Below, in pieces: positions 23,073 to 43,203 of a DNA stretch of 64,000 bases; the stretch's first letter is position 1, and the number at the start of each line of letters is the position of its first letter. Origin of the DNA: Bacteroidota bacterium (GTDB taxonomy: Bacteria; Bacteroidota; Bacteroidia; Chitinophagales; Saprospiraceae); contig JAHEAR010000008.1 in the NCBI GenBank assembly GCA_024642665.1, forward strand, positions 44,053-108,052. The letters are read 5' to 3'. The notes under the pieces were generated by a model. It was not told the origin of the DNA, ran no database searches, and was given only the letters and a program-made list of their open reading frames with translations. Both the position numbers and the translations under genes were made by a program.

Positions 23073-25937
23073 TCAAAATTCCATTAGGAATTCTGTAAGA
23101 TTAGTTTTAGCATCAACCTGCAATTTTTTTCGCAATCGATAGCGGCTGGCATCGATTCCGCGATGTGAAACATTTGCCAATACAGCGATTTCTTTGGTGG
23201 AGAGATTCATTCGCAGATAGGCACACAATTTTAAATCTCTGGTGGTAAGACTGTCATATTTTGCTTTCAATTTGGTAAAGAAATCTTCATTGACTTCATT
23301 GAAATGAAACACAAGATTATTCCAATGATCGTCGAGATCGCCATCACGTTCGACCCGTTGAACCATTTTCCGAATTTGGGAGGATGTTTTTTCATCGCTG
23401 CAGCTATTACAGATTTCAGCAAGCCGTTCCTTGATCTCTTCCATGGTTTCATTTTTTTGGAGGAGATGCATGGCAGAGGTTATTAATTCTCTTTTCTTAT
23501 GCTCCAATTGTTCAGCAATACGTTCGTTTTCCAGCTTTTCAATGGCGCTCTTCGATTCACTTACAGTTTGTTCGACTTCTTCTTCCAGTCGAATGATTTT
23601 TCTTCGATTAAAATAGAACAAAAATATAATGGCAATCAGGGCCAGGAAGGCATAGACGAGCCAGGCAATCAAAGAGCGATGCCAGGGGGGTAAAATTTCG
23701 AATCGATATTCTGTACTTCCAAAAACCTGATGGTTTGTGGTGGTCGCTTCAACCAAAAAAGTATATTTTCCGGGATCAAGTCTTGTATACTCTTTCATGT
23801 GTTGACTGGACCATTCAGACCATTCACCGTCGAAGTTTTTTAGTTTATACCGATAGAGCATATCTTCTTCGTAGCTAAATGCGGATGTTCCGAATCGAAA
23901 CTGAACAGTATTATCCAATGAGGGCAGAATTGTCCTGGTACCCTCGGGTTGCGAAGCCAGTACGTTTTCTCCATCATAAAAAACGCCGTTATAAAATGTA
24001 CTGTCATGCCTTCCGGTGGACCGGACTTCATGCATCAAAACAAGGATAGACGTATCTGCCTGCGTGTCCAGATAGGGATCGTAATGGATAAAGCCATCTG
24101 TCGATGCGATATAAACATTGTGTTCGTCATAGGGATAAATGAATTCCCATCCGGTATGCATCTTTTCCTTTAATCGCGGAAATACCTTTTTCTTAATGGT
24201 GCGTTCAAGCCCGATATCCTCTACCATCAGGATGCCCACTTCTTCATTAGTAATAAACCAAATATTTTTATGGCCATCTTCGAATAGCCTCCGAACTTTT
24301 ACATTATTGCCAAAAACATCGTTCAACGGGGCGTAGGGTACAAAGCGATTCATCTCTTCATCAAATTCAAACACCCCTTGTTCAGGACAAAAAAGCACTT
24401 TATTTCTTATGCTGAATACGTGGTTGTGCAAATAAGAAGGGAGTCCCTTTTCTGTTCCAAATAATGAATCATGCCATTCCCCACCATTATTTTGAGACAA
24501 GCGATAAACGCCCCGATACGGATGCGCCATCCAAATAACACCTTGTCCGTTCTGCACGATAAATCGACTGGATTCATTCATTTCTGATACCTGTTCGCCA
24601 ATGACAAATCGTCCGTTTTCAAGCGTGCCACTCCTGATTCCATTATAAGTGCCCAGAAAATAGGAGTTATTGGCGGTGAGATCTTTTTGCATTAACCAGA
24701 CACCGTTATTGCTGTAAAATGGGCGAGCGATTCCGTCGTGAACCTGAAAAGCACCGTTCTGATGACACAAGATTAATTGCTCATCCAAGATATTAAGGCC
24801 CCATACCTGACCTTTACTTCCGAGTACAGCATTATAGTGGTCCAGCTCCTCAATATTTCTGTCTCCGCTAATCAAATCGGAATAATACAAACCATTATTA
24901 GTGCCAAAATAAATACGGTCGTGCAAAATAGCCGCGGTATATCCTATACCATCCAATTGTCCGTCGGGCTTTAGATAGGTAAAAGGGGAATTGGTTTGAA
25001 TGAAATTGATTCCCTTAGTTGTTCCAACCCAAACATTCTGGTCCTTACTGACCAGAATACTCATGACATTATTGTTCAACAATCCGTTTTCTGTGTGTAT
25101 GTGATGCTTGATATGTAAGGAATCGTCTAAAATGACGAGGCCGCCAAAGTTTGTACCTATGATTACATCCCCATTAGCAAAACCGTTTACTTTGGTGATG
25201 ACATTTTCTTTGAGAAACGCACTCCATTTGCCGTCCAGCGGACTGATCGATCCATCCTGATAAAAGTAAAGTCCCTGACGCTCAGTGGCAATGATATGTC
25301 CGTTTAGATAGGGCACGCTGCCAAGGACAAGGGTATTCACTAATAGTTGTGTTCCGGGAATCTCTTGAAATTCAGTCCCATTGAATTTGTAAAGCAATCC
25401 ACTATTTGCCTGTCCTATGATTTGGCCATCGATGATATTAAAGAACTGAAAGGTAAAAGTGTCATAAACGGTACAAGCCTCATCCTTTATCACGTAAATC
25501 CTTCCCAATGACCTGAAGGCAATTTCATCCTGCTCAATACGAATATCCCAGACATCATCAAAATTCTTATAGGGTGCTTGAATGGACTCCTTTAGCGACC
25601 GATATTGCCAATTGCCTATGGGATCCGGCTCGAAAAGTCCAATTGCATTCTGCCCTCCACAATAGATCAGGCCATTTTTGTTTGTTTCAACTGATCGAAC
25701 GATGGTGCGGTTGGGTAGCGGAGCCAGCTTCCAATTGATTCCATCAAACATTAACATTCCATCGTTATTGGCAAAATACAGTACCTCCCTATTATCCTGT
25801 GTGATATCCCAATTCTGCATTGAAGCACCATATTGCGAGGGCATGAAGGATACGATTCTGGGTATGCCACCATGATTCTGTGCAGCTAAATCTCCACAGA
25901 ATAAGCAAAGCATAAGTATTGGCAGAATTTGATTCAT
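23073..25937 (-). CDS. Membrane-spanning PUL regulator: Reg_prop, Y_Y_Y and LuxR-type HTH
   Basis: A 954-residue regulator. A signal peptide (1-19) is followed by a long periplasmic beta-propeller region built of two-component-regulator-propeller repeats (for example NQNVWVGTTKGINFI, HKNIWFITNEEVGIL), then a Y_Y_Y domain (about 675-750; LYRYKLKNFDGEWSEW). One transmembrane helix (WLVYAFLALIAIIFLFYF) leads to a coiled coil. The C-terminus is a LuxR-type HTH (LTTRDLKLCAYLRMNLSTKE, then VLANVSHRGIDASRYRLRKK). No kinase domain is present, so it acts in one step from periplasm to DNA, unlike hybrid HTCS regulators. It is divergent from susC and is the obvious controller of the glucan PUL. Confidence 0.9.
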   Translation of the reverse strand: MNQILPILMLCLFCGDLAAQNHGGIPRIVSFMPSQYGASMQNWDITQDNREVLYFANNDGMLMFDGINWKLAPLPNRTIVRSVETNKNGLIYCGGQNAIGLFEPDPIGNWQYRSLKESIQAPYKNFDDVWDIRIEQDEIAFRSLGRIYVIKDEACTVYDTFTFQFFNIIDGQIIGQANSGLLYKFNGTEFQEIPGTQLLVNTLVLGSVPYLNGHIIATERQGLYFYQDGSISPLDGKWSAFLKENVITKVNGFANGDVIIGTNFGGLVILDDSLHIKHHIHTENGLLNNNVMSILVSKDQNVWVGTTKGINFIQTNSPFTYLKPDGQLDGIGYTAAILHDRIYFGTNNGLYYSDLISGDRNIEELDHYNAVLGSKGQVWGLNILDEQLILCHQNGAFQVHDGIARPFYSNNGVWLMQKDLTANNSYFLGTYNGIRSGTLENGRFVIGEQVSEMNESSRFIVQNGQGVIWMAHPYRGVYRLSQNNGGEWHDSLFGTEKGLPSYLHNHVFSIRNKVLFCPEQGVFEFDEEMNRFVPYAPLNDVFGNNVKVRRLFEDGHKNIWFITNEEVGILMVEDIGLERTIKKKVFPRLKEKMHTGWEFIYPYDEHNVYIASTDGFIHYDPYLDTQADTSILVLMHEVRSTGRHDSTFYNGVFYDGENVLASQPEGTRTILPSLDNTVQFRFGTSAFSYEEDMLYRYKLKNFDGEWSEWSSQHMKEYTRLDPGKYTFLVEATTTNHQVFGSTEYRFEILPPWHRSLIAWLVYAFLALIAIIFLFYFNRRKIIRLEEEVEQTVSESKSAIEKLENERIAEQLEHKKRELITSAMHLLQKNETMEEIKERLAEICNSCSDEKTSSQIRKMVQRVERDGDLDDHWNNLVFHFNEVNEDFFTKLKAKYDSLTTRDLKLCAYLRMNLSTKEIAVLANVSHRGIDASRYRLRKKLQVDAKTNLTEFLMEF

Positions 25938-26188: not shown

Positions 26189-29100
26189 ATGATAGGTAGT
26201 TACCGCTTTCCTATAACTGTTCTGCTTGTGTTTTTTGTGACAGCATTGAACGCGCAGTATATCACCGTTTCCGGCAGAATCACCGATTCCGGGGACAATT
26301 CGCCCCTGATTGGGGTAAATATTCTTGAAAAGGACAATCCTGCAAATGGGACAATTTCCGATTATGATGGTAACTATACTATAAGCTGTCCGGCCAATGC
26401 AACCATATCCTTTTCTTATGTTGGGTATTTGCCAAAGGTATTTTCCACTGATGCTTCGGACATGAACCTTGATTTGACCCTCGATCTTGATATCGAGATT
26501 TTGGATGAATTGGTCGTAGTCGGTTACAGCACCAAGCGGAAAAGTGCAATAAATTATGCTGTTTCTACAGTGAATGCAGAGGAAATAGGTCTGACCCAAA
26601 GTTTAAGAATTGAACAGGCCCTTCAAGGCAGAGCCTCCGGAGTGCAGATTACCCAGAGTTCTGGATCTCCAGGAAATGGCCTTTCGGTGATAGTGCGTGG
26701 GGCAGGAACTCCTTTGAATAGCAACCCCCTTTATATTGTCGATGGAATCTGGGTAGATGGGATAGACTATCTGAATCCGAGTGATATTCAATCCATAAGT
26801 ATATTGAAAGATGCAGCATCGGTGGCCATTTATGGTGCATCAGGAGCGAATGGGGTAGTTATAATCACAACGAAAGAAGGGACGCTTAACTCAAAGGCAA
26901 AAATAAGTCTTGATGCCTATTATGGTGTGCAGACAGTCGCCAAAACGCTCGATCTATTAAATGGTGAGCAATATGCCACCCTTTTGCTTGAGGCGGATCC
27001 AAAAAATCCATTCGACCTGAATGATCCGCTTACCTATGGAAATGGTACAGACTGGCAAAATGAGTTGTTTCAAAATGCTCCGATTGAGAGTTACCAATTT
27101 AATATTACAGGAGGGGGTGCCAAGACGACCTATGGTATGTCCGGTGGGTATTTTAATCAGGAAGGTATTATTGGAAAAAAGAAATCAGCCTTCGATCGCT
27201 ATAACGCTCAGTTTAAAGCCACGACACAGGCTTCAAAAGCATTCAGTTTTCAGGCCAATGCCAATTTTACGCATACTTCAAGAAATGCGCTACCGGAAAA
27301 TAATGAATTCTCTTCTCCGGTTGCATTTGCGCTTAATATTGATCCTTTAACTGCACCATATAAAGATGATGGCACATTCAATTACTCCAAAATAGTAACC
27401 GGTGATATCAAAAACCCACTTAATCGGGTGGCAACAACTTTTGATACGTGGGAGAGTGACCGGATTATCGGTTTGTTCGCCCCGCAAATTGAATTCATAG
27501 AGGGTCTGAAACTCAAATCAAGTATTTCGGGAGACCTTAATAATGCCCGGCAGTTTATGTTTGGCCCTTCTTACAATCTTGATTCCACTGGTATCTATGT
27601 GCACGAACGCGTGGATCAGAATTTTGTAGCGAAAAATAATTATCGTTGGTTTAATGTCTTATGGGAAAACATATTGAGTTATGATACGGAAATTAGGGGT
27701 GGTCATAACATTGCGCTCCTGGTTGGTAGTTCATATCGCAACAGAAATTTTGAACAGACAGGAGTAGGTCTTGCAGACCTTCCGACGAATGATCCGGATA
27801 AGGCATTTATCGTGGCTCAGAATATTACAGAGGACAATAAGGATACGCGAAATATATTCGAAGTTCGCAGCCAATCTACCTTGCTTTCCTATTTTGGAAT
27901 GGTCAATTACGATTATTTGGGTAAGTATTTCTTTTCTGCCTCTTTTCGACGGGATGGCTCCTCCAGGTTTGGCGAGAATAATAAGTTTGCCAACTTTCCA
28001 GCTTTTTCTACCGGCTGGATTGTTACCAAGGATTATTCACTTGGCGAAAATTGGAACTACCTCAAAGTTCGATTTTCATGGGGACAGAATGGTAATGAAG
28101 CCAGCCTTGGCGACTATGGATTTACAACGATTATCAATCCTGTTCGCTACATCTTTGGTGATGATCAGACGATTGTGAGTGGCGGTGCTCCTGTCACACC
28201 TCCGAATAGCGACCTGAAATGGGAGGTGAGTTCACAAACGAATGTGGGTGTTGATCTGGGCTTCTTTAAAGACAAACTCTCTTTGACTGCAGATTATTTT
28301 TATAAGAAGACCAGTGACTTACTTATTCCTGCAACGATCTTAGCAACTGCCGGATCCGGCATTGATGATATTTCTCCACCTTTTCGCAATGTGGGCAGTA
28401 TGTCGAACAAAGGATTTGAATTAGCTGTAGGATATAAGACTACATTCCGAAAGGAATTTCGGTTTGCTGTAAATGTGAACGGTACTTATATTAAAAATAA
28501 GGTCACAGATCTCGGTGCTGCAACTGCTCCATTTTCTTCCGGGTATAATCAGGGATTGGGAGGTACAACGACTCGAATGGAAGTAGGCAAACCGTTGGGA
28601 TATTTCTATGGCTATCAAACCATGGGTATCTTCCAGAATATCTTTGAAGTAGAGGAATATGTGGATGATGATGGTAATCAGATTCAGCCAAATGCCAAAC
28701 CAGGTGATTTCCGGTTTGCCGATCTGAATAATGATGGCAAAATCACAGATGCTGACCAGACGGAACTGGGCAATCCATATCCTGACTTTTTCTTTGGAAT
28801 CAGTACTTCGATGGAATGGAAGGGTTTTGATCTCAACTTGTTTTTTTATGGCTCTGTCGGCAATGAAATTGTAAATGCCACCACGCGCTATGATGTTCGG
28901 GTATCTAATCTGCCTGCCAATCGATTTAATCGATGGACACCTAACAATCCTTCCAATGAAGAGCCCAGAGTCAGCCTTACGGACCGTAATGGCAATTTCA
29001 GATTCTCTGATTACATGGTAGAAAATGGTTCATACTTCAAATTAAAGACGATTCAGATTGGGTATACATTACCGAGCAGTCTCACAAAAAAATATTCCGT

Positions 29101-29290
29101 GGAGCGAATGCGTTTTTATTTTTCGATTCAAAATGCCTTTACCATCACCGGTTACTCCGGTCTTGATCCTGAAATCGGAAAGCAGAATGCATTTGATAAC
29201 TCGATTTCCTCTACCCTTAATTATGGTGTTGACCGTGGGCTCTACCCACAGTCCAGACAATTCATTTGTGGAATTAATGTAGACTTCTGA
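26189..29290 (+). CDS. susC: SusC/RagA-type TonB-linked outer-membrane transporter
   Basis: A 1033-residue outer-membrane glycan importer. The signal peptide ends ALNAQ (residue 22). Residues 24-105 are the carboxypeptidase-regulatory-like domain (VSGRITDSGDNSPLIGVNI). The TonB-linked plug starts near DELVVVGYSTKRKSA and includes LQGRASGVQITQSSGSPG and IVDGIWVDG. A large beta-barrel fills the rest and ends RQFICGINVDF. It pairs with the SusD gene that follows and is the first gene of the laminarin-type PUL. The substrate is inferred from the downstream GH16/GH17/GH30/GH149 set. Confidence 0.95.
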   Translation: MIGSYRFPITVLLVFFVTALNAQYITVSGRITDSGDNSPLIGVNILEKDNPANGTISDYDGNYTISCPANATISFSYVGYLPKVFSTDASDMNLDLTLDLDIEILDELVVVGYSTKRKSAINYAVSTVNAEEIGLTQSLRIEQALQGRASGVQITQSSGSPGNGLSVIVRGAGTPLNSNPLYIVDGIWVDGIDYLNPSDIQSISILKDAASVAIYGASGANGVVIITTKEGTLNSKAKISLDAYYGVQTVAKTLDLLNGEQYATLLLEADPKNPFDLNDPLTYGNGTDWQNELFQNAPIESYQFNITGGGAKTTYGMSGGYFNQEGIIGKKKSAFDRYNAQFKATTQASKAFSFQANANFTHTSRNALPENNEFSSPVAFALNIDPLTAPYKDDGTFNYSKIVTGDIKNPLNRVATTFDTWESDRIIGLFAPQIEFIEGLKLKSSISGDLNNARQFMFGPSYNLDSTGIYVHERVDQNFVAKNNYRWFNVLWENILSYDTEIRGGHNIALLVGSSYRNRNFEQTGVGLADLPTNDPDKAFIVAQNITEDNKDTRNIFEVRSQSTLLSYFGMVNYDYLGKYFFSASFRRDGSSRFGENNKFANFPAFSTGWIVTKDYSLGENWNYLKVRFSWGQNGNEASLGDYGFTTIINPVRYIFGDDQTIVSGGAPVTPPNSDLKWEVSSQTNVGVDLGFFKDKLSLTADYFYKKTSDLLIPATILATAGSGIDDISPPFRNVGSMSNKGFELAVGYKTTFRKEFRFAVNVNGTYIKNKVTDLGAATAPFSSGYNQGLGGTTTRMEVGKPLGYFYGYQTMGIFQNIFEVEEYVDDDGNQIQPNAKPGDFRFADLNNDGKITDADQTELGNPYPDFFFGISTSMEWKGFDLNLFFYGSVGNEIVNATTRYDVRVSNLPANRFNRWTPNNPSNEEPRVSLTDRNGNFRFSDYMVENGSYFKLKTIQIGYTLPSSLTKKYSVERMRFYFSIQNAFTITGYSGLDPEIGKQNAFDNSISSTLNYGVDRGLYPQSRQFICGINVDF

Positions 29291-29336
29291 TATGACAACC
29301 AGGATAAGACCCATGACGTTTAAAAAAGTGATAACC

Positions 29337-30848
29337 ATGAAGAATTTTGCTTTAGTGATCTGTACCGCATTGCTGATGGTTTCTTGTAATAAGAATCTGG
29401 ATAAACTACCGGTGATTGGCGAACTGGATACAAACTTTTACCAAAATGAGCAGGATGCTCTTTCGGCACTTACAGCAGCATATGATCCACTTCAATACAA
29501 CTATACGACCATTGTCTATCATTTCAGATGGTTCTTTGGGGATTTTCCTTCTGATGATGCCATCAAAGGGGGCTCCGGTCAGACCGATCAACCGCAACTA
29601 GAGGAAATTGCCACCTATTTTGCAACTCCGTCAAATATTCATTTGAATGCAGATTGGACGGCAAAGTATATCGGGATCTACCGTGCAAATATTGTGCTTG
29701 AAAAAGTCCCTGAAATTCCACAGAGCGAGATCAATGAGGACATCCGGCAGCGCATTCTGGCGGAAGCGAAGTTTCTTCGGGCCTATTATTATTTCGATTT
29801 AGTAACGATGTATGGTGGTGTGCCACTCATCACAAAAGTATTATCACCCAGTGAATACAACCAGCCGCGTGCAAGTGCCAATGCGATTTGGACACTGATT
29901 GAGCAGGATCTGACCGAAGCTGCTGAAGTGCTACCCGAAAAAAGTGAATATAGTGCTTCAGATATCGGACGTGCTACAAAAGGGGCGGCATTAGGTTTGT
30001 TGACGAAGGCTTATATCTATCAATCAGATTGGGTGAGTGCGCAGAAGACGGCAGAAGATTTGATCAATAGTGGTGAATATTCGCTTGGGGCGGATTTTGA
30101 TGAGATATTTGTCAAAGACGGAGAGAATGGACCCGGATCTATTTTTGAAATACAACGCTCGCCATTAGGTGGCGGCTATTGGGGAAGTGTCAACGGTTCC
30201 AATGAAGGCAACCTAACCAATATCTATCAAATTGCCCGTGGACAATTCGGCGGATTTGGATTTAATATTCCTCAGCAAAGCCTCGTGGATGAATTTGAAA
30301 CGGGTGATCCCAGACTCAGTAGTACCGTATTTAGAGTTGGGGACACCATGGGGGATCGGGGTGTTTTTACGAAAGCAGCCACAGGCTTTGATCATGATTA
30401 TTATGCAAAAAAATATTTCGTCAGCAGAAGTGAACACGAAGAAATTAACATAGGGGATCCATTGATGAACGGGGAGTCCAATGATCGCATCTTGAGATAT
30501 GCTGATCTGTTGCTCATGCATGCCGAAGCGGCTTACCATAATGGGCAGGAAGGTGTCGCACGAACTTCCCTTAATGCTGTTCGTGAAAGAGCAAGACGAA
30601 ATGCTAATCCAGGTATTCTCCCTGATGTAAATGCTTCCGGACAGCAATTATTGGACGCGATTTATCACGAAAGAAGAGTAGAACTCGCGTTGGAAGGTTT
30701 GCGCTTTTTTGATGTAGTCAGGCAAGGCCGAGGACCGGAAGTATTCGGTCCACTGGGATTCATCGCAGGCAAACATGAGGTTTTTCCAATTCCTCAACAA
30801 CAGATATCATTAAGTAATGGAACGCTAACACAAAATCCAAATTATTAA
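29337..30848 (+). CDS. susD: SusD/RagB-type glycan-binding lipoprotein
   Basis: A lipoprotein of about 503 residues at the outer face, lidding the SusC barrel. The start chosen is the ATG at 29337, which opens a clean leader MKNFALVICTALLMVSC with lipidated Cys17; an upstream ATG at 29292 only adds a non-signal stretch. The TPR-rich SusD fold shows ILAEAKFLRAYYYFDLVTMYG and the C-terminal ERRVELALEGLRFFDVVRQG. It begins 46 bp after susC. It should bind beta-glucan oligosaccharides; no binding residues can be named from sequence alone. Confidence 0.95.
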   Translation: MKNFALVICTALLMVSCNKNLDKLPVIGELDTNFYQNEQDALSALTAAYDPLQYNYTTIVYHFRWFFGDFPSDDAIKGGSGQTDQPQLEEIATYFATPSNIHLNADWTAKYIGIYRANIVLEKVPEIPQSEINEDIRQRILAEAKFLRAYYYFDLVTMYGGVPLITKVLSPSEYNQPRASANAIWTLIEQDLTEAAEVLPEKSEYSASDIGRATKGAALGLLTKAYIYQSDWVSAQKTAEDLINSGEYSLGADFDEIFVKDGENGPGSIFEIQRSPLGGGYWGSVNGSNEGNLTNIYQIARGQFGGFGFNIPQQSLVDEFETGDPRLSSTVFRVGDTMGDRGVFTKAATGFDHDYYAKKYFVSRSEHEEINIGDPLMNGESNDRILRYADLLLMHAEAAYHNGQEGVARTSLNAVRERARRNANPGILPDVNASGQQLLDAIYHERRVELALEGLRFFDVVRQGRGPEVFGPLGFIAGKHEVFPIPQQQISLSNGTLTQNPNY

Positions 30849-30884
30849 TAAATTATCATTTACAAACAACTAAAATTTTTATTC

Positions 30885-32615
30885 ATGAGAAAATTATTCT
30901 ATTTACTCAGCCTTGTTTTATTGCCTATGCTGGTGATGACGACATCATGCAAAAAGGATGATCCAGTCGAGCCGGAAGATGTGAAATCACGTTTCACGGC
31001 AATGCAAGATGTCAATGATCCACTTACCTGGACATTTACAAATGCTTCTTTAAATGCAGTGTCATATGCCTGGACTTTTGGTGACGGAGGTACGGATACG
31101 GCGGAGAGTCCGACGCATACATATGCTGCCGATGGTACGTATACAGTGACACTGATTGCTACCGGTGCAGGGGGTGCCACAAACACTTCCAGCAAAGATA
31201 TCACAGTGGTTGACCCTAATGTAGAGTTGAAGAAACTTACGGGCGAAACTTCCAAAACATGGAAATTGCTTCGGACAATAAATCCTGCAACCGGCGAATT
31301 TCCAATCTCCGTGGGACCTGCTGACAGATCTCAGATTTGGTTTGCTTTAGGTCTTCAGGCGCCAATTGCTTCACGGCCTTGCCTCATGGAAGAAGAATAT
31401 ATATTCAGTTTTAACGGCAATTATGAATATCGACTTAAGGACAATATGGTTTGGGCAGAAGCGGGTGTATGGCCTGCTGCTATCCAGGAGACATGTGTTG
31501 ATGCTACCGTTCCTGCTAATATGGTGAATGTGGATGGTGCTGATATCAGCGCCTGGGGTGCAGGTATGTTTTCATTTGATTTTGATGTAGCCGCAGGAAC
31601 GTTGACATTGAATGGTCTGGGTGCTCATGTGGGAAGCTCAAAAGTAGGGACAGATGCTGAGTATACAACACCTCAGTTAGGGGTCACTTATAAGGTTGTA
31701 AGTCTGGAGACGGATGGTCCAGTAGATATGATGGTTCTCGAGACAGATATTCCACAACCGGGTTACTGGCAATTCAGACTGGTTGCTTATGATGATCCGA
31801 ATGATGAGCCAGATTTGCCAATGGAAGTTGTGGCTGATTTTTCAGCGGCGGTTAATGGCAGGGATGTTTCATTCACGAATAGTTCACTTAATGCAACTTC
31901 ATATTCATGGGATTTTGGGGACGGAGGAACTTCTACAGAAGCCAGCCCGATGCATACATACGCTACAGATGGATTGTTTGATGTGACGCTTACTTCAATG
32001 GGTACTGGTGGATCAAATATGACTACACAAACCTTCCTGATTTGTACCAATAATACGTTTACAGCTTCTGACTTGAATGGTAATGGAACTAAGACATGGA
32101 AACTGTATCCGGGTGCAGGCGCATTAAAGGTTGGACCTTGCAAAGGTTGTGGAGAAGGGGGTAATTGGTTTGCAACCAGTAAAGATGATGTTAATACGCG
32201 AAGCTGCACTTTCGACGACACGTATACTTTTGATAATGCGGGTAATTTTACTTACGTGACAAACGGAGATATATGGGGCGAAGCATACATGGGCTTACCG
32301 GATGGTGCCTGTGCTACAACGAATGCATTGACAGGAGGCGCTACCGCCTGGGGAGATGGTAATCATACGTTTACTTTTACCGAAGGAAATCCATCCTCCA
32401 TTACGGTGACCGGAACTGGTGCTTTCATCGCCCTTCCTAAAGCCTTTAATGGTGGTGAATATTCAACACCAAATCCGGTTGCTAATGGTTCTGTAACGTA
32501 TGAGGTTTTGTGTTACCTGAACGATGGTAACAGGGAAATAGTGGTGATCACCCTTGATATTAGTGCGGGTCAAACGGGTGGAGCGTTTTGGACATTTACC
32601 CTGCAAGCAGAATAA
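30885..32615 (+). CDS. Surface glycan-binding lipoprotein with duplicated PKD + beta-module
   Basis: A 576-residue lipoprotein (lipobox TTSC, Cys22) in the position usually held by SusE/SGBP-B. It is an internal duplication: PKD domain (about 35-115, YAWTFGDGGTDTAESPTHTY), a 180-residue beta module (KTWKLLR onward), a second PKD (about 318-395, YSWDFGDGGTSTEASPMHTY) and a second beta module (KTWKLYPG onward) to the end. Corresponding motifs in both modules are KTWKL, W-x-EA, EYxTP and WxFxLxA. The second copy has gained a CKGCGEGG segment. It probably captures glucan chains at the cell surface. No enzyme motif is visible. Confidence 0.85.
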   Translation: MRKLFYLLSLVLLPMLVMTTSCKKDDPVEPEDVKSRFTAMQDVNDPLTWTFTNASLNAVSYAWTFGDGGTDTAESPTHTYAADGTYTVTLIATGAGGATNTSSKDITVVDPNVELKKLTGETSKTWKLLRTINPATGEFPISVGPADRSQIWFALGLQAPIASRPCLMEEEYIFSFNGNYEYRLKDNMVWAEAGVWPAAIQETCVDATVPANMVNVDGADISAWGAGMFSFDFDVAAGTLTLNGLGAHVGSSKVGTDAEYTTPQLGVTYKVVSLETDGPVDMMVLETDIPQPGYWQFRLVAYDDPNDEPDLPMEVVADFSAAVNGRDVSFTNSSLNATSYSWDFGDGGTSTEASPMHTYATDGLFDVTLTSMGTGGSNMTTQTFLICTNNTFTASDLNGNGTKTWKLYPGAGALKVGPCKGCGEGGNWFATSKDDVNTRSCTFDDTYTFDNAGNFTYVTNGDIWGEAYMGLPDGACATTNALTGGATAWGDGNHTFTFTEGNPSSITVTGTGAFIALPKAFNGGEYSTPNPVANGSVTYEVLCYLNDGNREIVVITLDISAGQTGGAFWTFTLQAE

Positions 32616-32645
32616 ATTTTGACAATTTTGTTGTTATTGTAATGT

Positions 32646-32684
32646 ATTCCCCCGACTCTTATAAGTTGGGTCGGGGGAATTATT
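32646..32684 (+). terminator. Strong hairpin between the transport and hydrolase parts of the PUL
   Basis: Ten-base arms (TTCCCCCGAC at 32647-32656, GTCGGGGGAA at 32670-32679) with a 13-base loop are followed by TTATTAAA. It looks like a terminator or an attenuator with partial read-through, since the same-strand GH16 gene starts 70 bp later. Confidence 0.7.
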
Positions 32685-32757
32685 AAACATTGCTTCTCAC
32701 TTTCTAAGCTTAGAAATGATTTGCTTGAATATTAGTTCCTCCGGAAAAAATTTGCAC

Positions 32758-33969: not shown

Positions 33970-34085
33970 GTTTATAATTGAATAACAAAACAGAATTTTA
34001 CTAAGGTGTCATGGATCTATAAGAAGTAAAAATTGATCCTGTCGAATCAATCGTTTATGTGCCATCAACCTGAACTCCCGGTATT

Positions 34086-35387: not shown

Positions 35388-38300
35388 TGGCGACAGATAA
35401 TTCAAATAACAGGATTGATGGCATATGGATTGGAAATGATAAATTCTATAAGATATCTAATGTTGATGTGCTCCGGCCATTCTTTATGAATATCGTCAGT
35501 GCCGGAAATCACTGGTTTTTTATTAGCAGCAATGGTGGCTTAAGCGTAGGGCGGAAGAATGCTGATGTTGCTCTTTTCCCATACTACACGGATGATAAAA
35601 TTACGGAATCAGCTGAGATCACCGGTAGTAAAACCATTATTCGACTTCGTACGTCAGAAAAGTTATTTGTCTGGGAACCGTTTTCTGAAAGGTGGGAAGG
35701 TAAATATAGAATCACCAGGAACCTGTACAAGAGTATTTATGGAAATAAAATACTCTTCGAGGAGATCAACCATGAACTGGAATTGACGTTCAGGTATTGT
35801 TGGACGACCAGTGATTTATTCGGTTTTGTCAAGAGCGCATCCATTACCAATCATTCAAAAGGAGATATACGGCTATCGGTATTAGACGGTCTTCAAAACA
35901 TTATTCCATATGGTATTGGAAGTAATTTGCAAAATCAATTCAGTAATCTTGTGGATGCTTATAAGCGAAGTGAACTGATCATAGATTCCGGGCTTGGAAT
36001 TTTTGCTTTAAGTGCTATCATAGCTGATAGGGCTGAACCTAGTGAAGCTTTGAAAGCGAATGTTGTCTGGTCATATGGTTTGCCGGAATCAAAGCACTTA
36101 CTTTCTTCTATTCAATTAAAAAGTTTCAGGAGCGGAAATCCTATCCATGAAGAGGTGGATATCAAAGGTGAAAAAGGAGCTTATTTCATTTGCGCAGAAT
36201 TCCTGCTTCAGTGCAATGAAAATAAAGAATGGGTAATGGTAGCTGAGGTTGAACAGAATCAATCCGCTATTGCGGCTATATCGCAACGAATAAAAAATGA
36301 TACGGATCTTGAGAAACAGGTCAGGGAAGACATCGAGGCGGGCACCAGACGTTTAATTGAAATTGTTGCCGGATCCGACGGTTTGCAACTTACTTCTGAT
36401 CATCCGGTGGATTCCAGACATTTCGCTAATACTCTTTTCAATATAATGCGGGGGGGGATTTTTGATTTTAATTATCGGATTGAGAAATGGGATTTTACTA
36501 AATTCATTTCAACGGCCAATATATTAGTATTTCAAAAATTTAAGGCTCAGCTGGATGCGCTCCCCGATGCGTTTTCATTGATGGAGCTAAAGAAGTTAGC
36601 GGCACAGAGTGAAGTTGGTGCTTTCAGCCGTTTATGCATGGAATACTTGCCCTTAAAATTCAGCAGACGTCATGGCGATCCCAGCAGGCCCTGGAATAGA
36701 TTTTTCATCAATACAAAGAGTGATGATGGATCAAAACTTCTTGCCTACGAAGGAAACTGGCGAGACATTTTTCAAAACTGGGAGGCCCTGGCACATGCTT
36801 ATCCTGAGTTTATAGAAAGTATGATCTATAAATTTGTCAACGCCTCTACGTTTGATGGGTACAATCCTTACCGGGTGACGAAAGACGGATTTGATTGGGA
36901 AACGATTGAACCTGACAATCCCTGGTCTTATATTGGGTACTGGGGGGATCATCAGGTGATTTATTTGTTAAAGTTTCTTGAGTTTTTTGAGAAGCATTAT
37001 CCCGGCAAACTGGCAAGATATTTAGATAGAGAGGAATTCGTTTATGCCAATGTTCCTTATAAAATCAAAGCGTATAGGGATATTCTTGAGAACCCGAAAG
37101 ACACTATTTATTTTGATGTTGAGGCCGATAAATTAATCCGCAGGCAAATGGAAGTTAAAGGTTCCGATGCGGCGTTGATTTACACGGAAGATGGATCAAT
37201 TTATACCGTCAATTTTGTTGAGAAGCTTCTGGCACTTGTGCTGAGTAAGCTATCCAATTTTATCCCCGGTGGAGGTATTTGGATGAATACCCAACGTCCG
37301 GAATGGAATGATGCAAATAATGCCTTGGTGGGCAATGGTGTATCAATGGTGACACTCTGTTATTTAAGGCGTTTCATGGTCTTTTTCAGAAGGGTGCTTA
37401 TAGCGGCAGATAATGAGAGATTTAGGGTTTCTAACGAACTCATTGTTGCTTACAAGCGAATCAGAGAAACTTTCGAACAGTACGAAGATATTTTATCTAA
37501 GGAGATTGGTGATAAGGAACGCAAGTCCATATTAGATCATTTGGGGCAAGCGGCAAGTGATTACAGGCAGCATATTTATAAACAGGGCTTTTGGGGTGAA
37601 AAAAGGACAATATCCAGAGAGGGGCTAATTCATTTTATGGATGTCAGTTTGAAATTTTTGGATCACACTATCCGATCAAACGAAAGACAGGACAATTTAT
37701 TCCATGCTTATAACCTGATGACTTTTGAAAATGGAGACAGCATTTCTGTTTCTCGTCTGAGTGAAATGCTGGAAGGGCAAGTGGCGGTATTAAGTTCGGG
37801 GTATTTGGCGTCATCAAAAGTTCTTGATGTGCTGGATGCCTTAAAACGCAGTGCGCTGTATCGCAAGGATCAGGAGAGTTATATGCTTTATCCAAATAAG
37901 GAATTGCCCGGCTTCAGCGAGAAAAATAATATTAGCCGGGAAACGATTGCCAAATCGACTTTACTTCAGCAAATGGTAGAAAGCGAAAATGTAAAAATTA
38001 TCGAAAAGGATGTTAATGGCATGTATCACTTCAATGGGGATTTCAAAAATGCCGGTGACCTGAATGCGGCCTTGGATTTGTTGTCTCAAAGTCGATATGG
38101 TTCACTGGTTAATGCAGAAAGAATGCTAGTGCTGCAAATCTTTGAAGAAGTATTTAATCACAAAGCTTTTACCGGACGGTCAGGCACTTTTTTTGGGTAT
38201 GAGGGGCTCGGATCGATATACTGGCACATGGTATCTAAGCTGCGACTTGCAGTACAAGAGTGTTGCTTTGTGGCGATAGAGCGGAAGGAAAGCCCGCAGA

Positions 38301-38821
38301 CGATTGACCGATTGATGAAGCATTATTTTGAGATCAGAGAAGGTATCGGTGTGCACAAAACACCTGCCATTTACGGCGCCTTTCCCACCGATCCATATTC
38401 ACATACACCGGCAGGCAAGGGTGCCCAGCAGCCTGGTATGACAGGTCAGGTAAAAGAGGATATACTGTGCAGATTTGGTGAATTGGGAGTTTTTGTGAAA
38501 GCAGGTCAATTGTCTTTCAATCCTTTTTTACTGCGTAAGAATGAATTTTTGAAAGAGCCTACGTTGTTTCACTTTGTCAATGTTCTGGATCATCATGATC
38601 AGATGGAATTGGAAGAAGGAAGTATTGGCTTTACTTATTGTCAGGTTCCCATTGTATACAAGATTGCATTAGAGCATAGCTTGGAAGTCCGGCAAAATAA
38701 CGCAACTACGGTCCGTTTTTCATCATCAGTCCTTGATGTAGAAACGACACAACAGGTGTTCCAAAGAACGGGAAGGATAGAATGCATTATTGTTAATGTC
38801 AATGAATCGGAATTGCAATAG
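35384..38821 (+). CDS. GH149-type beta-1,3-glucan phosphorylase
   Basis: A 1145-residue cytoplasmic protein without signal peptide. Its length and conserved blocks match GH149 beta-1,3-oligoglucan phosphorylases: YIGYWGDHQVIYLLKFLE (about 516-533), RPEWNDANNALVGNGVSM (638-655) with Asp643 as candidate general acid by analogy to the WND motif of GH94, YEGLGSIYWHMVSKLRLAVQ and TPAGKGAQQPGMTGQVKEDI. The family releases glucose 1-phosphate from beta-1,3-glucooligosaccharides with inorganic phosphate, saving ATP. The start overlaps the previous stop (ATGA). The assignment rests on remembered family motifs, so GH94/GH161 relatives remain possible. Confidence 0.82.
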   Translation: MMATDNSNNRIDGIWIGNDKFYKISNVDVLRPFFMNIVSAGNHWFFISSNGGLSVGRKNADVALFPYYTDDKITESAEITGSKTIIRLRTSEKLFVWEPFSERWEGKYRITRNLYKSIYGNKILFEEINHELELTFRYCWTTSDLFGFVKSASITNHSKGDIRLSVLDGLQNIIPYGIGSNLQNQFSNLVDAYKRSELIIDSGLGIFALSAIIADRAEPSEALKANVVWSYGLPESKHLLSSIQLKSFRSGNPIHEEVDIKGEKGAYFICAEFLLQCNENKEWVMVAEVEQNQSAIAAISQRIKNDTDLEKQVREDIEAGTRRLIEIVAGSDGLQLTSDHPVDSRHFANTLFNIMRGGIFDFNYRIEKWDFTKFISTANILVFQKFKAQLDALPDAFSLMELKKLAAQSEVGAFSRLCMEYLPLKFSRRHGDPSRPWNRFFINTKSDDGSKLLAYEGNWRDIFQNWEALAHAYPEFIESMIYKFVNASTFDGYNPYRVTKDGFDWETIEPDNPWSYIGYWGDHQVIYLLKFLEFFEKHYPGKLARYLDREEFVYANVPYKIKAYRDILENPKDTIYFDVEADKLIRRQMEVKGSDAALIYTEDGSIYTVNFVEKLLALVLSKLSNFIPGGGIWMNTQRPEWNDANNALVGNGVSMVTLCYLRRFMVFFRRVLIAADNERFRVSNELIVAYKRIRETFEQYEDILSKEIGDKERKSILDHLGQAASDYRQHIYKQGFWGEKRTISREGLIHFMDVSLKFLDHTIRSNERQDNLFHAYNLMTFENGDSISVSRLSEMLEGQVAVLSSGYLASSKVLDVLDALKRSALYRKDQESYMLYPNKELPGFSEKNNISRETIAKSTLLQQMVESENVKIIEKDVNGMYHFNGDFKNAGDLNAALDLLSQSRYGSLVNAERMLVLQIFEEVFNHKAFTGRSGTFFGYEGLGSIYWHMVSKLRLAVQECCFVAIERKESPQTIDRLMKHYFEIREGIGVHKTPAIYGAFPTDPYSHTPAGKGAQQPGMTGQVKEDILCRFGELGVFVKAGQLSFNPFLLRKNEFLKEPTLFHFVNVLDHHDQMELEEGSIGFTYCQVPIVYKIALEHSLEVRQNNATTVRFSSSVLDVETTQQVFQRTGRIECIIVNVNESELQ

Positions 38822-38822
38822 G

Positions 38823-40127
38823 ATGCGTCATTCATTAATAAACATATGGTTGCTTGGTCTGGTGATGTTAACGCTTGTTGCATCCTGTAAAGGGCAGGAT
38901 GATATAAAAGTTAATCGCCCTGAATTAATGAATAAGGAGATGACAGCTAAAGATATTTTGGGCAATCCAAAATTTCAGGCAATAGCCTATGGCGGTTATC
39001 GTGAAATGACTCGTGAAAAACAACCGACCATTGAAGATTTGAAAGAAGATTTAAAAATTCTTCACGCCATGAACATTAAGGTGCTGAAAACTTTTAATGT
39101 TGAATTAGCTGAGACATCTAATTTGCTGAAAGCCATAAAATCATTGATGTCTGAAGATAAGACATTTGAAATGTACGTGATGTTGGGTGCATGGATATCA
39201 TGTGAAAATGCATGGATTCCAGGAGTTGCACCTAATCATGACAAAGAAGATATCAAGGCTAATACCCTGGAAATTGAAAGAGCTATTGAATTAGCCAATC
39301 AATATCCTTCCATTGTAAAGGTTATTTCTGTGGGAAATGAGGCGATGGTGCATTGGGCGGAACGCTATTATGTGCAGCCTGATGTGGTTTTATCCTGGGT
39401 CAATCATTTGCAGGCGTTAAAGAAGATGGATAAACTACCTCGGGATATCTGGATCACATGTTCGGATAATTTTGATGCATGGGGAGGAGGCGATTCCATT
39501 TATCACGTGCCAGCACTTGTGGATTTGATTCGGGCAGTAGATTTTGTGTCCATGCATACTTATCCTTATCATAATACATATTATCAGCCGGATTTTTGGG
39601 GAATTCAGGAAAGCGAAGTAGCACTTTCTGATATTCAAAAGATTGAATTGGCGATGCGTCGTGCCGTTGAATTTGCACAGGTGCAATATCAGGCTGTTGC
39701 GACTTACATTGAGAAACTCGGCATTGAAAAACCCATTCATATCGGAGAAACAGGGTGGGCTACTATGTCGAATGGAAACTATGGCTCTAACGGGTCCAAG
39801 GCCACGGATGAATTTAAGCAAGCACTCTATTACAAATGGGTCAGAGACTGGACCAATGATACAGGTATTACTTGTTTTTATTTTGAAGCATTTAATGAAC
39901 GTTGGAAAGATGCAGGAAATCAAGGGGGATCAGAGAATCATTTTGGGTTGTTCACCGTCGATGGCAGTGCAAAGTATGTTCTATGGGATCTTGTTGATCA
40001 AGGTGTATTTGACGGATTGACGAGAAATGGAAACCCTATTTCAAAAACCTATGAAGGGGATATCGATGCATTGCTGAGGGATGTGGAGATGCCGGCTGTG
40101 AAAAATATTATAGCTGCTGACCTTTGA
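38823..40127 (+). CDS. GH17-type beta-1,3-glucanase lipoprotein
   Basis: A 434-residue lipoprotein when read from the ATG at 38823, one base after the GH149 stop; a start at 38790 would overlap that gene and spoil the leader. Lipobox LVASC (Cys22). The barrel shows the GH17 pattern: ILGNPKFQAIAYGGYREMT, ISVGNEAMVHW with acid/base Glu173, MHTYPYHNTYY and IHIGETGWATMSN with nucleophile Glu309. GH17 enzymes cleave unbranched beta-1,3-glucan from ends or internally. It should shorten the GH16 products in the periplasm or at the surface. Confidence 0.88.
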   Translation: MRHSLINIWLLGLVMLTLVASCKGQDDIKVNRPELMNKEMTAKDILGNPKFQAIAYGGYREMTREKQPTIEDLKEDLKILHAMNIKVLKTFNVELAETSNLLKAIKSLMSEDKTFEMYVMLGAWISCENAWIPGVAPNHDKEDIKANTLEIERAIELANQYPSIVKVISVGNEAMVHWAERYYVQPDVVLSWVNHLQALKKMDKLPRDIWITCSDNFDAWGGGDSIYHVPALVDLIRAVDFVSMHTYPYHNTYYQPDFWGIQESEVALSDIQKIELAMRRAVEFAQVQYQAVATYIEKLGIEKPIHIGETGWATMSNGNYGSNGSKATDEFKQALYYKWVRDWTNDTGITCFYFEAFNERWKDAGNQGGSENHFGLFTVDGSAKYVLWDLVDQGVFDGLTRNGNPISKTYEGDIDALLRDVEMPAVKNIIAADL

Positions 40128-40137
40128 GAAGTAGATT

Positions 40138-41616
40138 ATGCAACAGATAATTTTTTCAATACTAATAGTCTTTATGAGCGCAAGTGGTTGTCATCGCACT
40201 GCAAGATTGGATGTGAAGGTTGTTGAAACCTCTGCGGGTGGAAATAAGTTAACACCAGTAGCTGTTTTGTCTTCAGCGAAGCCTGGCATTAGGATTGTTT
40301 TACATCCGGAAAAGCAATATCAGACGATTACTGGTTTTGGGGGCTCATTTACTGAGTCATCTGCCAATGTATTAAATCGATTGAGCAAGGAGAATCGGAA
40401 TAAGATTCTGGAAGCCTATTTTTCAAAAGAAGGCGCTAATTATTCTCTTTGCCGGACGCATATGAATTCCTGTGATTTTTCTTTGGGACATTATTGTTAT
40501 GCCTCTGTGGAAGATGATATGATGCTTGATCATTTTTCCATCGATGAAGATAAAGATGATCTTATACCCATGATCAAGGATGCGATGAATATTTCTGAAG
40601 ATGGTTTTCGGATCATCGCTTCGCCCTGGACAGCACCGCCATGGATGAAAGACAATCATGATTGGATGGGAGGAAGATTGCTGCCCGGGTTTTATGACAC
40701 CTGGGCGATGTTCTATTCTAAGTATGCAGATGCCTACAATTCAGAAGGTATTACTATATGGGGATTTACGGTCGTCAATGAACCACATGGCAACGGTGAC
40801 AATTGGGAAAGCATGTTGTTTACCCCTGAAGAAATGACAGCATTCGTGCAGCATCATTTAGGTCCAAAGTTGGAAGCAGATGGAAAGAGCGACATGGTTA
40901 TCCTTGGGTATGATCAGAACAGAGCTGGTTTGAAAGAGTGGGTGGATGTCATGTACAGCGATGATGCTTCTTCGAAGTATTATAGTGGAACGGCCATTCA
41001 TTGGTATGAAAGTACGTATGAGATTTTCGGGCAGGACTTACAATATGCTCATCAAAAAGCACCGGATAAATATCTGATTCAAACAGAAGGATGTGTGGAT
41101 TCAGAAGTGCCGAGATGGAAAGATGATTCGTGGTATTGGAGCAAGGAAGCTACGGATTGGGGATGGGACTGGGCTCCTGAGAAAGATAAGTATCTCCATC
41201 CGAAGTATGTTCCTGTGTTTCGCTACGCTCGTGATATCATCGGGTGCCTGAATAATTGGGTAGATGGATGGATCGATTGGAATATGGTATTGGATAAACA
41301 AGGGGGACCGAATTGGTTTAAGAACTGGTGCGTAGCTCCTGTCATTGTTGATCCGGAAAATGACGAAGTATATTTTACGCCATTGTATTATACAATGGTT
41401 CACTTCAGCAAGTTCATGCGACCCGGTGCTAAATCAATCGAGGTCGTCTGTTCAGATAATGATCTCATGGTTGCTGCAGTGCTTAATCCGGATAAAACTA
41501 TCGCTGCGGTGATATTCAATCCCGGCGAAGAAGCCAAAGATTTTGAAATTGAATTAAATGGACAATCCACAAGGGTGCAAATCAGTGGGCTGGCGATTCA
41601 AACGATTGTGATATAA
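40138..41616 (+). CDS. GH30-family beta-glucosidase/beta-1,6-glucanase lipoprotein
   Basis: A 492-residue lipoprotein (SASGC, Cys18). The GH30 barrel opens with TITGFGGSFTESSANVL, then FRIIASPWTAPPWMKDN. Catalytic residues are Glu215 in WGFTVVNEPHGNG (acid/base) and Glu317 in YLIQTEGCVD (nucleophile). The small beta-sandwich ends the protein. GH30 members of laminarin loci remove beta-1,6-linked glucose branches, which is the likely role here, letting GH17 and GH149 act on the linear chain. It starts 10 bp after GH17. Confidence 0.9.
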   Translation: MQQIIFSILIVFMSASGCHRTARLDVKVVETSAGGNKLTPVAVLSSAKPGIRIVLHPEKQYQTITGFGGSFTESSANVLNRLSKENRNKILEAYFSKEGANYSLCRTHMNSCDFSLGHYCYASVEDDMMLDHFSIDEDKDDLIPMIKDAMNISEDGFRIIASPWTAPPWMKDNHDWMGGRLLPGFYDTWAMFYSKYADAYNSEGITIWGFTVVNEPHGNGDNWESMLFTPEEMTAFVQHHLGPKLEADGKSDMVILGYDQNRAGLKEWVDVMYSDDASSKYYSGTAIHWYESTYEIFGQDLQYAHQKAPDKYLIQTEGCVDSEVPRWKDDSWYWSKEATDWGWDWAPEKDKYLHPKYVPVFRYARDIIGCLNNWVDGWIDWNMVLDKQGGPNWFKNWCVAPVIVDPENDEVYFTPLYYTMVHFSKFMRPGAKSIEVVCSDNDLMVAAVLNPDKTIAAVIFNPGEEAKDFEIELNGQSTRVQISGLAIQTIVI

Positions 41617-41631
41617 CTGTAATTAAATAAA

Positions 41632-43203
41632 ATGTCTAAGCTCAAAATACCGACTCAATATAAAGTCCCGCTAGGACAAAAAGCTGCTTTCGGCGCAGGT
41701 CATTTTGTGCTGAACATGCTGCCGGGCGCACTTGGGTTCTTTTCTTTTTTTTTACTGACTGCATTTGGGATGGATCCATTTCTGGCAGGATTGCTGGGAG
41801 GGTTGCCGCGTATATGGGATGCGGTGACTGATCCAATCATGGGCTTTATATCTGATAATACAAGATCACGTTGGGGACGCCGGAGGCCTTATATTTTTAT
41901 GGGTGCGATTTTAAGCGGAATATTCTTTATCCTGTTATGGCAAATAGATGAAACAAATTCACAGACCTATATCTTCTGGTACTTTCTCATCTTTTCGCTG
42001 ATATTTCTGGTAGGAAATACAATTTTTGCTACACCTTTGGTCGGTCTCGGATATGAAATGACACCTGACTACAATGAAAGGACACACTTAATGGGTTTTG
42101 CCAATACGATGGGGCAAATTGCATGGATGCTTGTTCCCTGGTTTTGGGTTATTATAGCCGATCCTGAGATATTTACAACGCAGGCAGATGGTGTGCGCCA
42201 AATGTCTTTAGTGGTTGGAGCAGCTTGTATTATACTTGGAATTTTGCCGGCCATATTTTGTCGGGGAATCGATGCCAGCCATATGGATAATTTAGAAAAG
42301 TTGTCATTCCGAAATTTAATTTCAAATCTGAAAAAACTTTTTAGTGGGATTGCTCAGGTGGCGAGAAACAAACCATTCATGAAACTGTGTGGTGCCACCT
42401 TTTTAATTTTTAATGGATTTCAGGTGGTTGCTGCTTTCAGCGTTTTCATTATTGTATTCTACATGTATAATGGAAGCTATGCTGATGCGGGTACCTGGCC
42501 AGCCTGGTTTGGAACATTTACAGCGGTGATTACAGCTTTTATTGTAATTCCGATCGTATTAAAATTGTCAGACAAATATGGAAAGCAAAAGGCCTTTATC
42601 ATTTCAACCCTGATCTCTGTCATTGGCTACTTACTCAAATGGTGGGGTTTTAGCGTTCCGCTAAATGATCGATTTAATGAAACAGGCTTTGCACAATTAC
42701 TTAATCAGGGGGTTGCTTCTATTTTTGGATTTCTGGATCCAATACTTGATCAACTGGGTATGTCCTGGTTTAGTATTGATGCCAGCGGAGGTATCCCATG
42801 GCTTATATTTGTTCCGATTCCATTTATTGCTTTTGGGCTAGGTGGTTTATTTACGCTCATGATGAGTATGACAGCTGATGTTTGCGATTTGGATGAATTA
42901 GAGAATGGTATGCCCCGTAAAGAAGCCACGTATGGTGCGATCTACTGGTGGATGGTTAAGTTAGGGCAAGGATTAGCATTGGCACTTGGAGGATTGGTTC
43001 TCAAGTTAGTTGGGTTTATATCAGATGCCCCGACACAAGCGGGTGAAACGATGACGCAATTGAGGATTGCAGATATTGTCATACCGGTTTTTACGGCCCT
43101 TTTGGCCATAGTGATTATGTGGAAATATAATTTGACAGAAAAACGATCCAAGGAGATAAAAGATGAATTGGTTAAGCGCAGGGGAGAATTTAAACTATCT
43201 TAA
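41632..43203 (+). CDS. GPH-family sugar:cation symporter
   Basis: A 523-residue inner-membrane transporter with about 12 helices, of the glycoside-pentoside-hexuronide group. The signature is the loop DAVTDPIMGFISDNTRSRWG followed by RRRPYIFMGA. It closes the PUL 15 bp after the GH30 gene and supplies the uptake step needed before cytoplasmic phosphorolysis by GH149. The substrate is probably short beta-1,3-glucooligosaccharide or glucose, inferred from context. Confidence 0.9.
   Translation: MSKLKIPTQYKVPLGQKAAFGAGHFVLNMLPGALGFFSFFLLTAFGMDPFLAGLLGGLPRIWDAVTDPIMGFISDNTRSRWGRRRPYIFMGAILSGIFFILLWQIDETNSQTYIFWYFLIFSLIFLVGNTIFATPLVGLGYEMTPDYNERTHLMGFANTMGQIAWMLVPWFWVIIADPEIFTTQADGVRQMSLVVGAACIILGILPAIFCRGIDASHMDNLEKLSFRNLISNLKKLFSGIAQVARNKPFMKLCGATFLIFNGFQVVAAFSVFIIVFYMYNGSYADAGTWPAWFGTFTAVITAFIVIPIVLKLSDKYGKQKAFIISTLISVIGYLLKWWGFSVPLNDRFNETGFAQLLNQGVASIFGFLDPILDQLGMSWFSIDASGGIPWLIFVPIPFIAFGLGGLFTLMMSMTADVCDLDELENGMPRKEATYGAIYWWMVKLGQGLALALGGLVLKLVGFISDAPTQAGETMTQLRIADIVIPVFTALLAIVIMWKYNLTEKRSKEIKDELVKRRGEFKLS

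Follow-up and report, generated by a model that had tools for sequence, protein, structure and literature searches.

The founding description of glycoside hydrolase (GH) family GH149 established the activity of these enzymes and placed most Bacteroidetes GH149 genes in predicted polysaccharide utilization loci (PULs) or clusters of carbohydrate-active enzyme genes (PMC5827456, 2018). In Formosa sp. Hel1_33_131, laminarin-induced PULs hold GH16, GH149, FbGH17A, FbGH30 and an MFS transporter, and activities have been reported for FbGH30 (exo-beta-1,6), FbGH17A (endo-beta-1,3) and FbGH17B (PMC6246565). PULs of Muricauda and Flagellimonas carry, in many cases, a LuxR-type regulator, as well as a PKD protein, GH16, GH149, GH17A, GH30_1 and an MFS transporter, with GH3 in place of GH149 in some Muricauda PULs (PMC13188888). 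The GH149 laminarin PUL arrangement is thus already described (PMC5827456, PMC13188888, PMC6246565), for a substrate reported to be a major marine carbon store (PMC13188888, PMC11345257).

Here we describe a locus of similar content at positions 23,073 to 43,203 of a 64,000-nucleotide stretch (the window) of contig JAHEAR010000008.1 from a Bacteroidota bacterium of the family Saprospiraceae (assembly GCA_024642665.1). The locus is, with high probability, a laminarin-type PUL that would break down branched beta-1,3-glucan and end in cytoplasmic phosphorolysis by GH149. It also encodes a protein, here called GHA, that belongs to a conserved, uncharacterised group tied to GH149 and that represents the less ordinary part of the locus.

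Results

Nine genes on the + strand, extending from 26189 to 43203, follow each other in operon-like order with intergenic gaps of 1 to 116 bp or overlaps. GH149 (35384..38821, no signal peptide by eye) is the longest of them and stands mid-operon, overlapping the upstream GHA gene by 4 bp and, with the listed starts, the downstream GH17 gene by 32 bp; GH17 translation may in fact begin slightly later, at an ATG a few codons inside the listed start. The encoded protein matches the equivalog model NF058639 with 1752.9 bits (cut-off 1150) over residues 12-1140, a full-length match that rules out a chance or partial hit, and its residues 11-1144 align to Pro_7066 (PDB 6hq6) with 1602.5 bits. Three features described for Pro_7066 (PMC6771811) map onto this protein, the catalytic WND loop to W641-N642-D643, the RD motif to R460-D461 and the phosphate-site His to H948; WND and RD were placed through the Pro_7066 alignment and the residue numbers given in PMC6771811, and H948 by residue offset. 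Each of these motifs is conserved in 80 or more of the 81 aligned sequences. Judged by its sequence, the protein unambiguously belongs to the 1,3-beta-glucan phosphorylase family and has the catalytic motifs of that family, with the corresponding activity predicted; its best named matches come from a Saprospiraceae metagenome-assembled genome (MAG; 65% identity) and a Lewinellaceae MAG (64%). Because characterised GH149 enzymes accept glucose as acceptor (PMC6484121), laminaribiose should also be a substrate.

Searches of the window's own genome (3.7 Mb in 72 contigs, 98.3% complete) found one GH149, one GH17 and one GH30 gene, the latter two being those of the PUL, as well as two genes of the PGM superfamily. 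GH1 and GH94 were not found in these searches, and a GH17B query returned the GH17 of the PUL as its sole match (31.7 bits). One GH3 was found outside the PUL, in a frame of 985 amino acids (aa); the 857 aa examined hold a GH3 N-domain and a beta-lactamase-type domain, with no GH3_C domain found among them, and the best NCBIfam model was that of a beta-N-acetylhexosaminidase, at 167.3 bits and thus below its cut-off of 207. We rejected this protein as a beta-glucosidase, since the part examined gave no GH3_C match and resembled NagZ-like and beta-lactamase-type models. The statement in the initial annotation that GH3 is absent therefore holds for the PUL but not genome-wide, where one GH3 of this NagZ-like/beta-lactamase-type build occurs. 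Of the enzymes known to act terminally on beta-1,3-glucan, GH149 is thus the only one that was found in the genome, in searches that did not cover GH5, GH116 or other beta-glucosidase families.

The operon opens with a SusC/RagA TonB-linked outer-membrane transporter (26189..29290; TIGR04056, 819.6 bits, with a Plug domain) and a SusD-like glycan-binding lipoprotein (29292..30848; PF07980, PF14322; lipobox-like MVSC), followed by a PKD-domain protein (30885..32615; PF18911, PF00801) and a GH16 with a Calx-beta domain (32716..33969; PF00722, 81.8 bits, PF03160), both of which look like lipoproteins when their N-termini are read by eye. GHA (34086..35387; a stand-alone protein of 433 aa with a TTG start and an N-terminal hydrophobic helix) precedes GH149. 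Downstream lie a predicted GH17 endo-laminarinase of the FbGH17A type (38790..40127; PF00332, 36.6 bits), which aligns with FbGH17A (PDB 6fcg) at 595.4 bits over residues 22-441 of 445 and hence full length, and a GH30 (40138..41616; PF02055, 252.4 bits, PF17189) that is probably an FbGH30-like beta-1,6-glucosidase; they share 60% and 67% identity, respectively, with the GH17 and GH30 of a Formosa MAG locus (L053). The closest solved structures to this GH30 are glucosylceramidases, which we take to belong to GH30_1, and the NCBIfam endo-1,6 model gave 225.6 bits, below its cut-off of 700. Lipobox-like motifs were seen by eye in GH17 and GH30, as in SusD. The last gene encodes a GPH/MFS_2 symporter (41632..43203; PF13347, 192.4 bits; TIGR00792, 172.7 bits, below the cut-off of 231.35); a GH17B hidden in this protein was ruled out, as its 523 aa match transporter models only. 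Divergent from the PUL is a LuxR-type regulator (23073..25937, - strand) with Pfam Reg_prop, Y_Y_Y and GerE domains, the last at 21.7 bits and below its cut-off of 23.5. All genes named in the initial annotation were recovered within 23073-43203 in the order given there, as was this regulator, which it had not listed. A susCD-like pair, GH149, GH16/GH17 and GH30 are thus all inside one cluster, which is the content of a GH149-type laminarin PUL. A scan for promoters and terminators returned 58 promoter-like sites (50.3 expected) and 21 terminator-like sites (13.0 expected) and was not used.

GH149 was found in 51 of the 296 Bacteroidota genomes sampled and in 74 of 199 genomes sampled from the window's own family; it was not found in G306, the one other genome listed from the window's genus. 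For comparison of gene content, we used 80 named GH149 loci (identified by L numbers), which are the best 80 of at least 590 and favour close relatives of the window GH149. The main counts refer to the 49 loci in which GH149 is flanked by 8 kb or more on either side, the other 31 being left out for short flanks; genes were assigned by BLAST with few queries, so that divergent copies can escape and an absence refers to the stretch compared. GH17A and MFS are each present in 47 of these 49 loci, GH16 in 41 and GH30 in 39; GH17B is present in 41 and GH3 in 10, with one or both in 42 and neither in 7. The initial annotation had regarded a GH3 beta-glucosidase as the more usual final step, but GH3 is not the usual companion by these counts; because GH17B occurs in 41 of the 49 loci and GH3 in 10, the missing GH17B is more telling than the missing GH3. 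Among 20 loci from the same family (L174-L193), 10 show neither GH3 nor GH17B within the stretch, which reaches at most about 7 kb downstream of GH149 and is cut by contig ends in L180 and L190. The window is in a minority among GH149 loci, yet not alone. GH17B exo-type genes stand after the MFS gene, either as separate genes (L049:17697-18611 and many others) or fused to it (L053:16194-18539). In another locus (L060:14620-17627), GH30 and MFS are found in several short frames, probably due to assembly frameshift errors.

Of the 296 Bacteroidota genomes, 33 have a strong GHA homologue (match with E < 1e-100), and GH149 is present in 32 of these 33 (Fisher p 1.8e-28, kinship ignored); eight weak matches were left out (in genomes G077, G240, G267, G139, G274, G188, G282 and G120), three of them with GH149. 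The single genome with GHA and no GH149, G235, has a GHA copy with two stops, and 19 GH149 genomes lack a strong GHA homologue. In 31 of the 32 genomes with both genes, GHA and GH149 share a contig and are no more than 25 kb apart; of these 31 pairs, 30 have both genes on the same strand and 29 have GHA upstream. For G104, where GH149 is split over two contigs, the piece on the contig of GHA was used. All six complete stand-alone GHA genes in the 80 named loci stand directly before GH149, at 36-143 bp as measured between stop-to-stop frames, and the stand-alone GHA genes of L187 and L191 do likewise. A strict rule is contradicted by G123, with a stand-alone GHA 18.8 kb off on the other strand, and by G242, where it lies 2.6 kb downstream; L186 has a stand-alone copy beside a fused one.

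The window GHA has no match in Pfam or NCBIfam. Its AlphaFold2 model is confident (predicted local distance difference test [pLDDT] 83.6; predicted template modelling score [pTM] 0.85), and Foldseek ranked GH158, GH157 and GH2 enzymes first, with the GH72 enzyme Gas2 at rank 15. VIA-align gave Z 27.3 against GH158 (root-mean-square deviation [rmsd] 3.0 over 289 residues) and, within 1 Z of this value, 27.1 for human beta-glucuronidase, 27.1 for GH157 and 26.7 for a GH5 mannanase. Further profile and structure comparisons used hand-chosen complete sequences, namely 32 GHA domains (7 stand-alone, including that of the window, and 25 cut from fusions), 31 of 41 named fusions, 6 GH158-like sequences and 5 sequences of GHB, a shorter GHA relative. 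Two glutamates, E171 (in GNEN) and E278 (in FTE), are invariant in all 32 GHA homologues and, by the position of their motifs, would form the catalytic pair. Because the predicted TIM-barrel matches clan enzymes and the Glu pair is invariant, we assign GHA to clan GH-A, in agreement with the label "GH-A" that the initial annotation had given it. In sequence, GHA is distant from all of the fold matches: identity with GH158 is about 18% over the residues aligned with VIA-align, and a single-sequence comparison with BuGH158 gave E 0.48, while the GHA profile reaches E 1.2e-4 against GH158 and an hhalign probability of 98.4% (E 5.8e-15) against the GH158-like alignment. The GH2 TIM-barrel model PF02836 is matched at E <= 1 by 29 of the 32 GHA members (best 6.4e-12), the window protein not being among them; of the 9 families listed for the members, none was a GH2 N-terminal model. 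The GH72 glucanosyltransferase model was reached by six of the 32 (best E 1.5e-5). Most likely, GHA is secreted and acts on beta-1,3-glucan as a retaining hydrolase or transglycosylase.

A GH158-like protein or GHB is present in 7 of 10 well-flanked loci without GHA versus 1 of 39 with GHA (Fisher p 1e-5). GHB, which is related to GHA with an hhalign probability of 99.9% (E 4e-31), was found in five GH149 loci without GHA (L044:14723-15748, L064:14694-15758, L073:13412-14443, L077:14642-15655 and L048:10648-11706), four of which have SusCD upstream; a GHB match in L096 was rejected as a cross-match (28%) to the GHA fusion itself. The GH158-like protein of L048, the sole one compared with solved structures, matches PDB 9oro with 299.3 bits, and the other five named GH158-like proteins share 62-69% identity with it; judging by the structure titles (6pal, 9oro), the GH158 enzymes with solved structures are laminarinase-like. 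Because GH158-like proteins or GHB occur in most of the loci where GHA is missing, a beta-1,3-glucanase-like role of GHA is supported.

In 41 of the 80 named loci (e.g., L053:1619-4792), GHA does not stand alone but takes up the N-terminal end of a longer protein, with frames of roughly 870-1080 aa, some of them cut by the stretch. This fusion is present in 14 of the 20 same-family loci, and GHA frames exceed 1000 aa in 27 of the 33 genomes with strong homologues. The C-terminal part of about 600 aa had no Pfam match in the one member tested (L053) and was modelled as some two dozen long strands, in a fusion model that is weak (pLDDT 74.2, pTM 0.51). With this whole model, the Foldseek matches included the TonB-dependent receptors BtuB3G3, BtuB, OprC, FepA, ZnuD and PirA (E 7e-10 to 3e-7), which would fall on the C-terminal part; the rmsd of the barrel matches is at least 10 Å, Foldseek gave no aligned range, and a second alignment covered mainly residues 15-415 and thus bears little on the barrel. 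We propose, with modest confidence in the modelled fold, that the C-terminal domain is a receptor-like outer-membrane beta-barrel. The stretch reaches 3 kb or more upstream of the fusion in 22 fusion loci, and in 2 of these SusC or SusD was found there (BLAST with the window proteins as queries); neither was seen within the stretch in the 14 same-family fusion loci. For stand-alone GHA with at least 7.5 kb upstream, SusCD is present in three of seven loci (the window, L040 and L102) and was not found in four (L083, L086, L187 and L191). Fusion loci are mostly without nearby SusCD, and the stand-alone form does not require SusCD; because four of seven stand-alone copies are also without SusCD, the barrel is not simply exchanged for it. 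A search for a separate barrel half in the window genome gave no match, a result that shows little as the search had no positive control. We found no description of the GHA-barrel fusion in the open-licence literature.

Several genes elsewhere in the window were noted. Just downstream of the PUL is a TMEM175-type potassium channel domain (44081-44695, - strand; 83.8 bits). An ERG4/ERG24-type sterol reductase (48700-49779, - strand; 164.4 bits) and a dehydrogenase resembling 3-beta-hydroxysteroid dehydrogenase (14274-15323, - strand; 228.2 bits) suggest possible sterol or steroid chemistry, which is unusual in Bacteroidota. A di-haem peroxidase (CCP_MauG; 329-2313, - strand) adjoins an MbnP protein that carries a type IX secretion tail, and the two may form a metal-related pair. 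Other genes encode a protein with four MopE-type putative metal-binding repeats (4655-6055, - strand), a sulfatase-family protein of 815 aa (8629-11076, - strand; 205.3 bits) and a protein of 1218 aa in which a Peptidase_S74 (endosialidase chaperone) domain lies close to the C-terminus (56067-59723, + strand).

Discussion

Enzyme families (for GHA, the clan only), operon-like order, catalytic motifs and the results of the own-genome searches come from the sequence itself; from them we infer substrate, localisation, induction and flux. Laminarin would be cut at the cell surface by GH16, perhaps also by GHA or GH17, and the resulting oligosaccharides would be bound and imported by SusC/SusD, perhaps together with the PKD protein. 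In the periplasm, GH30 would strip beta-1,6-linked glucose while GH17 and GHA shorten the beta-1,3 chain, and the GPH symporter would carry short laminari-oligosaccharides inward, where GH149 would phosphorolyse them one glucose at a time, yielding glucose 1-phosphate and one terminal glucose. The branched beta-1,3-glucan target suggested in the initial annotation fits the gene content, and a phosphorylase as the final step is well supported by the family and motifs of GH149, its apparent lack of a signal peptide and own-genome searches that found no GH3 of beta-glucosidase build, GH1, GH94 or GH17B. The further suggestion that bond energy is conserved as glucose 1-phosphate would apply to the GH149 step, but not to the glucose released by GH30 or to the one free glucose left per chain. 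Several points weigh against phosphorolysis as the end of the pathway: free glucose could arise already before import through GHA or GH30; localisation rests on signal peptide and lipoprotein calls that were made by reading N-termini by eye; two matches to the PGM superfamily are no proof of a phosphoglucomutase; and a beta-glucosidase may have been missed in a genome of 72 contigs and 98.3% completeness in which GH5, GH116 and other families were not searched.

If GH30 and GHA were to free glucose in the periplasm and leave GH149 the leftovers, hydrolysis would carry most of the flux. Such a division is compatible with glucosylceramidases as the nearest solved structures to GH30, with a clan GH-A enzyme of no assigned substrate and with the presence of a symporter that might carry small sugars; however, FbGH30 was inactive on debranched laminarin (PMC6246565), neither a GH3 of beta-glucosidase build nor GH1 or GH17B was found in the own-genome searches, and GH149 is the longest gene of the operon and stands in its middle, all of which makes dominant hydrolysis quite improbable. 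Phosphorolysis by GH149 would remain the end step if the target were another beta-1,3-glucan (fungal, callose-like or bacterial), as the linkages cut are common to these glucans and the sequence does not identify the source; we nevertheless consider a target other than laminarin unlikely, given that GH17 and GH30 have their nearest characterised relatives in the laminarin-induced PULs of Formosa (PMC6246565) and that many named relatives are marine, as judged by genus name. With regard to GHA, a beta-1,6-acting or transglycosylating enzyme is a distinct possibility, although we lean towards a beta-1,3-glucan hydrolase: the "GH2" of Muricauda, which is probably GHA, is called a beta-1,6-glucosidase in the discussion of PMC13188888, and the GH72 glucanosyltransferase model is touched by 6 of 32 homologues with Gas2 among the fold matches, whereas GHA is mostly missing where GHB or GH158, an endo-beta-1,3-glucanase family, is present, and the locus already holds a GH30.

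A more far-reaching and rather doubtful proposal is that GHA founds a new GH family (clan GH-A, beta-1,3-glucan-active), the usual form of which is fused to a plug-less, TonB-receptor-like outer-membrane barrel, so that a single protein would cut laminarin and also admit it, often where SusCD would be expected, with the window holding a detached form beside SusCD that feeds a phosphorolysis-only pathway. If this were true, the GHA-barrel fusion would be the outer-membrane counterpart of the inner-membrane MFS-GH17B fusion. Provided that the fusion is real as modelled, it points to an outer-membrane route that would escape PUL annotation. Because 42 of the 49 well-flanked GH149 loci carry GH17B or GH3, it is difficult to tell how much of laminarin use proceeds by phosphorolysis; the window genome, in which no other known terminal beta-1,3 enzyme than GH149 was found, offers a clean test case that would need a single deletion in such an organism. 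In addition to this test case, the locus draws attention to GHA as an uncharacterised group of enzymes.

Compared with the Bacteroidetes GH149 PULs of PMC5827456, the locus shares susCD-like genes and GH16 and/or GH17; beta-glucosidases of GH3 and/or GH30_1 are common in those clusters, while the window has GH30 and no GH3 in its PUL. In the Muricauda PULs, the MFS gene is followed by another GH17 gene, MlGH17B (PMC13188888), whereas no second GH17 was found in the window locus or genome; the "GH2" of those PULs is probably a GHA-barrel fusion, as in Flagellimonas algicola (L057), in contrast to the stand-alone GHA of the window. Both differences recur in the Formosa locus L053, where the MFS is fused to an exo-glucosidase GH17B (782 aa, compared to a 523-aa window MFS that is 41% identical) and GHA is fused to a barrel-like domain. 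Finally, the GH158 endo-laminarinases (BuGH158, 6pal; GH158(Pro), 9oro) differ from GHA in sequence, at about 18% identity, and true GH158 mostly occurs in GH149 loci without GHA; they nonetheless provide its best or joint-best fold match and share with it the Glu pair and an occurrence in beta-1,3-glucan loci.

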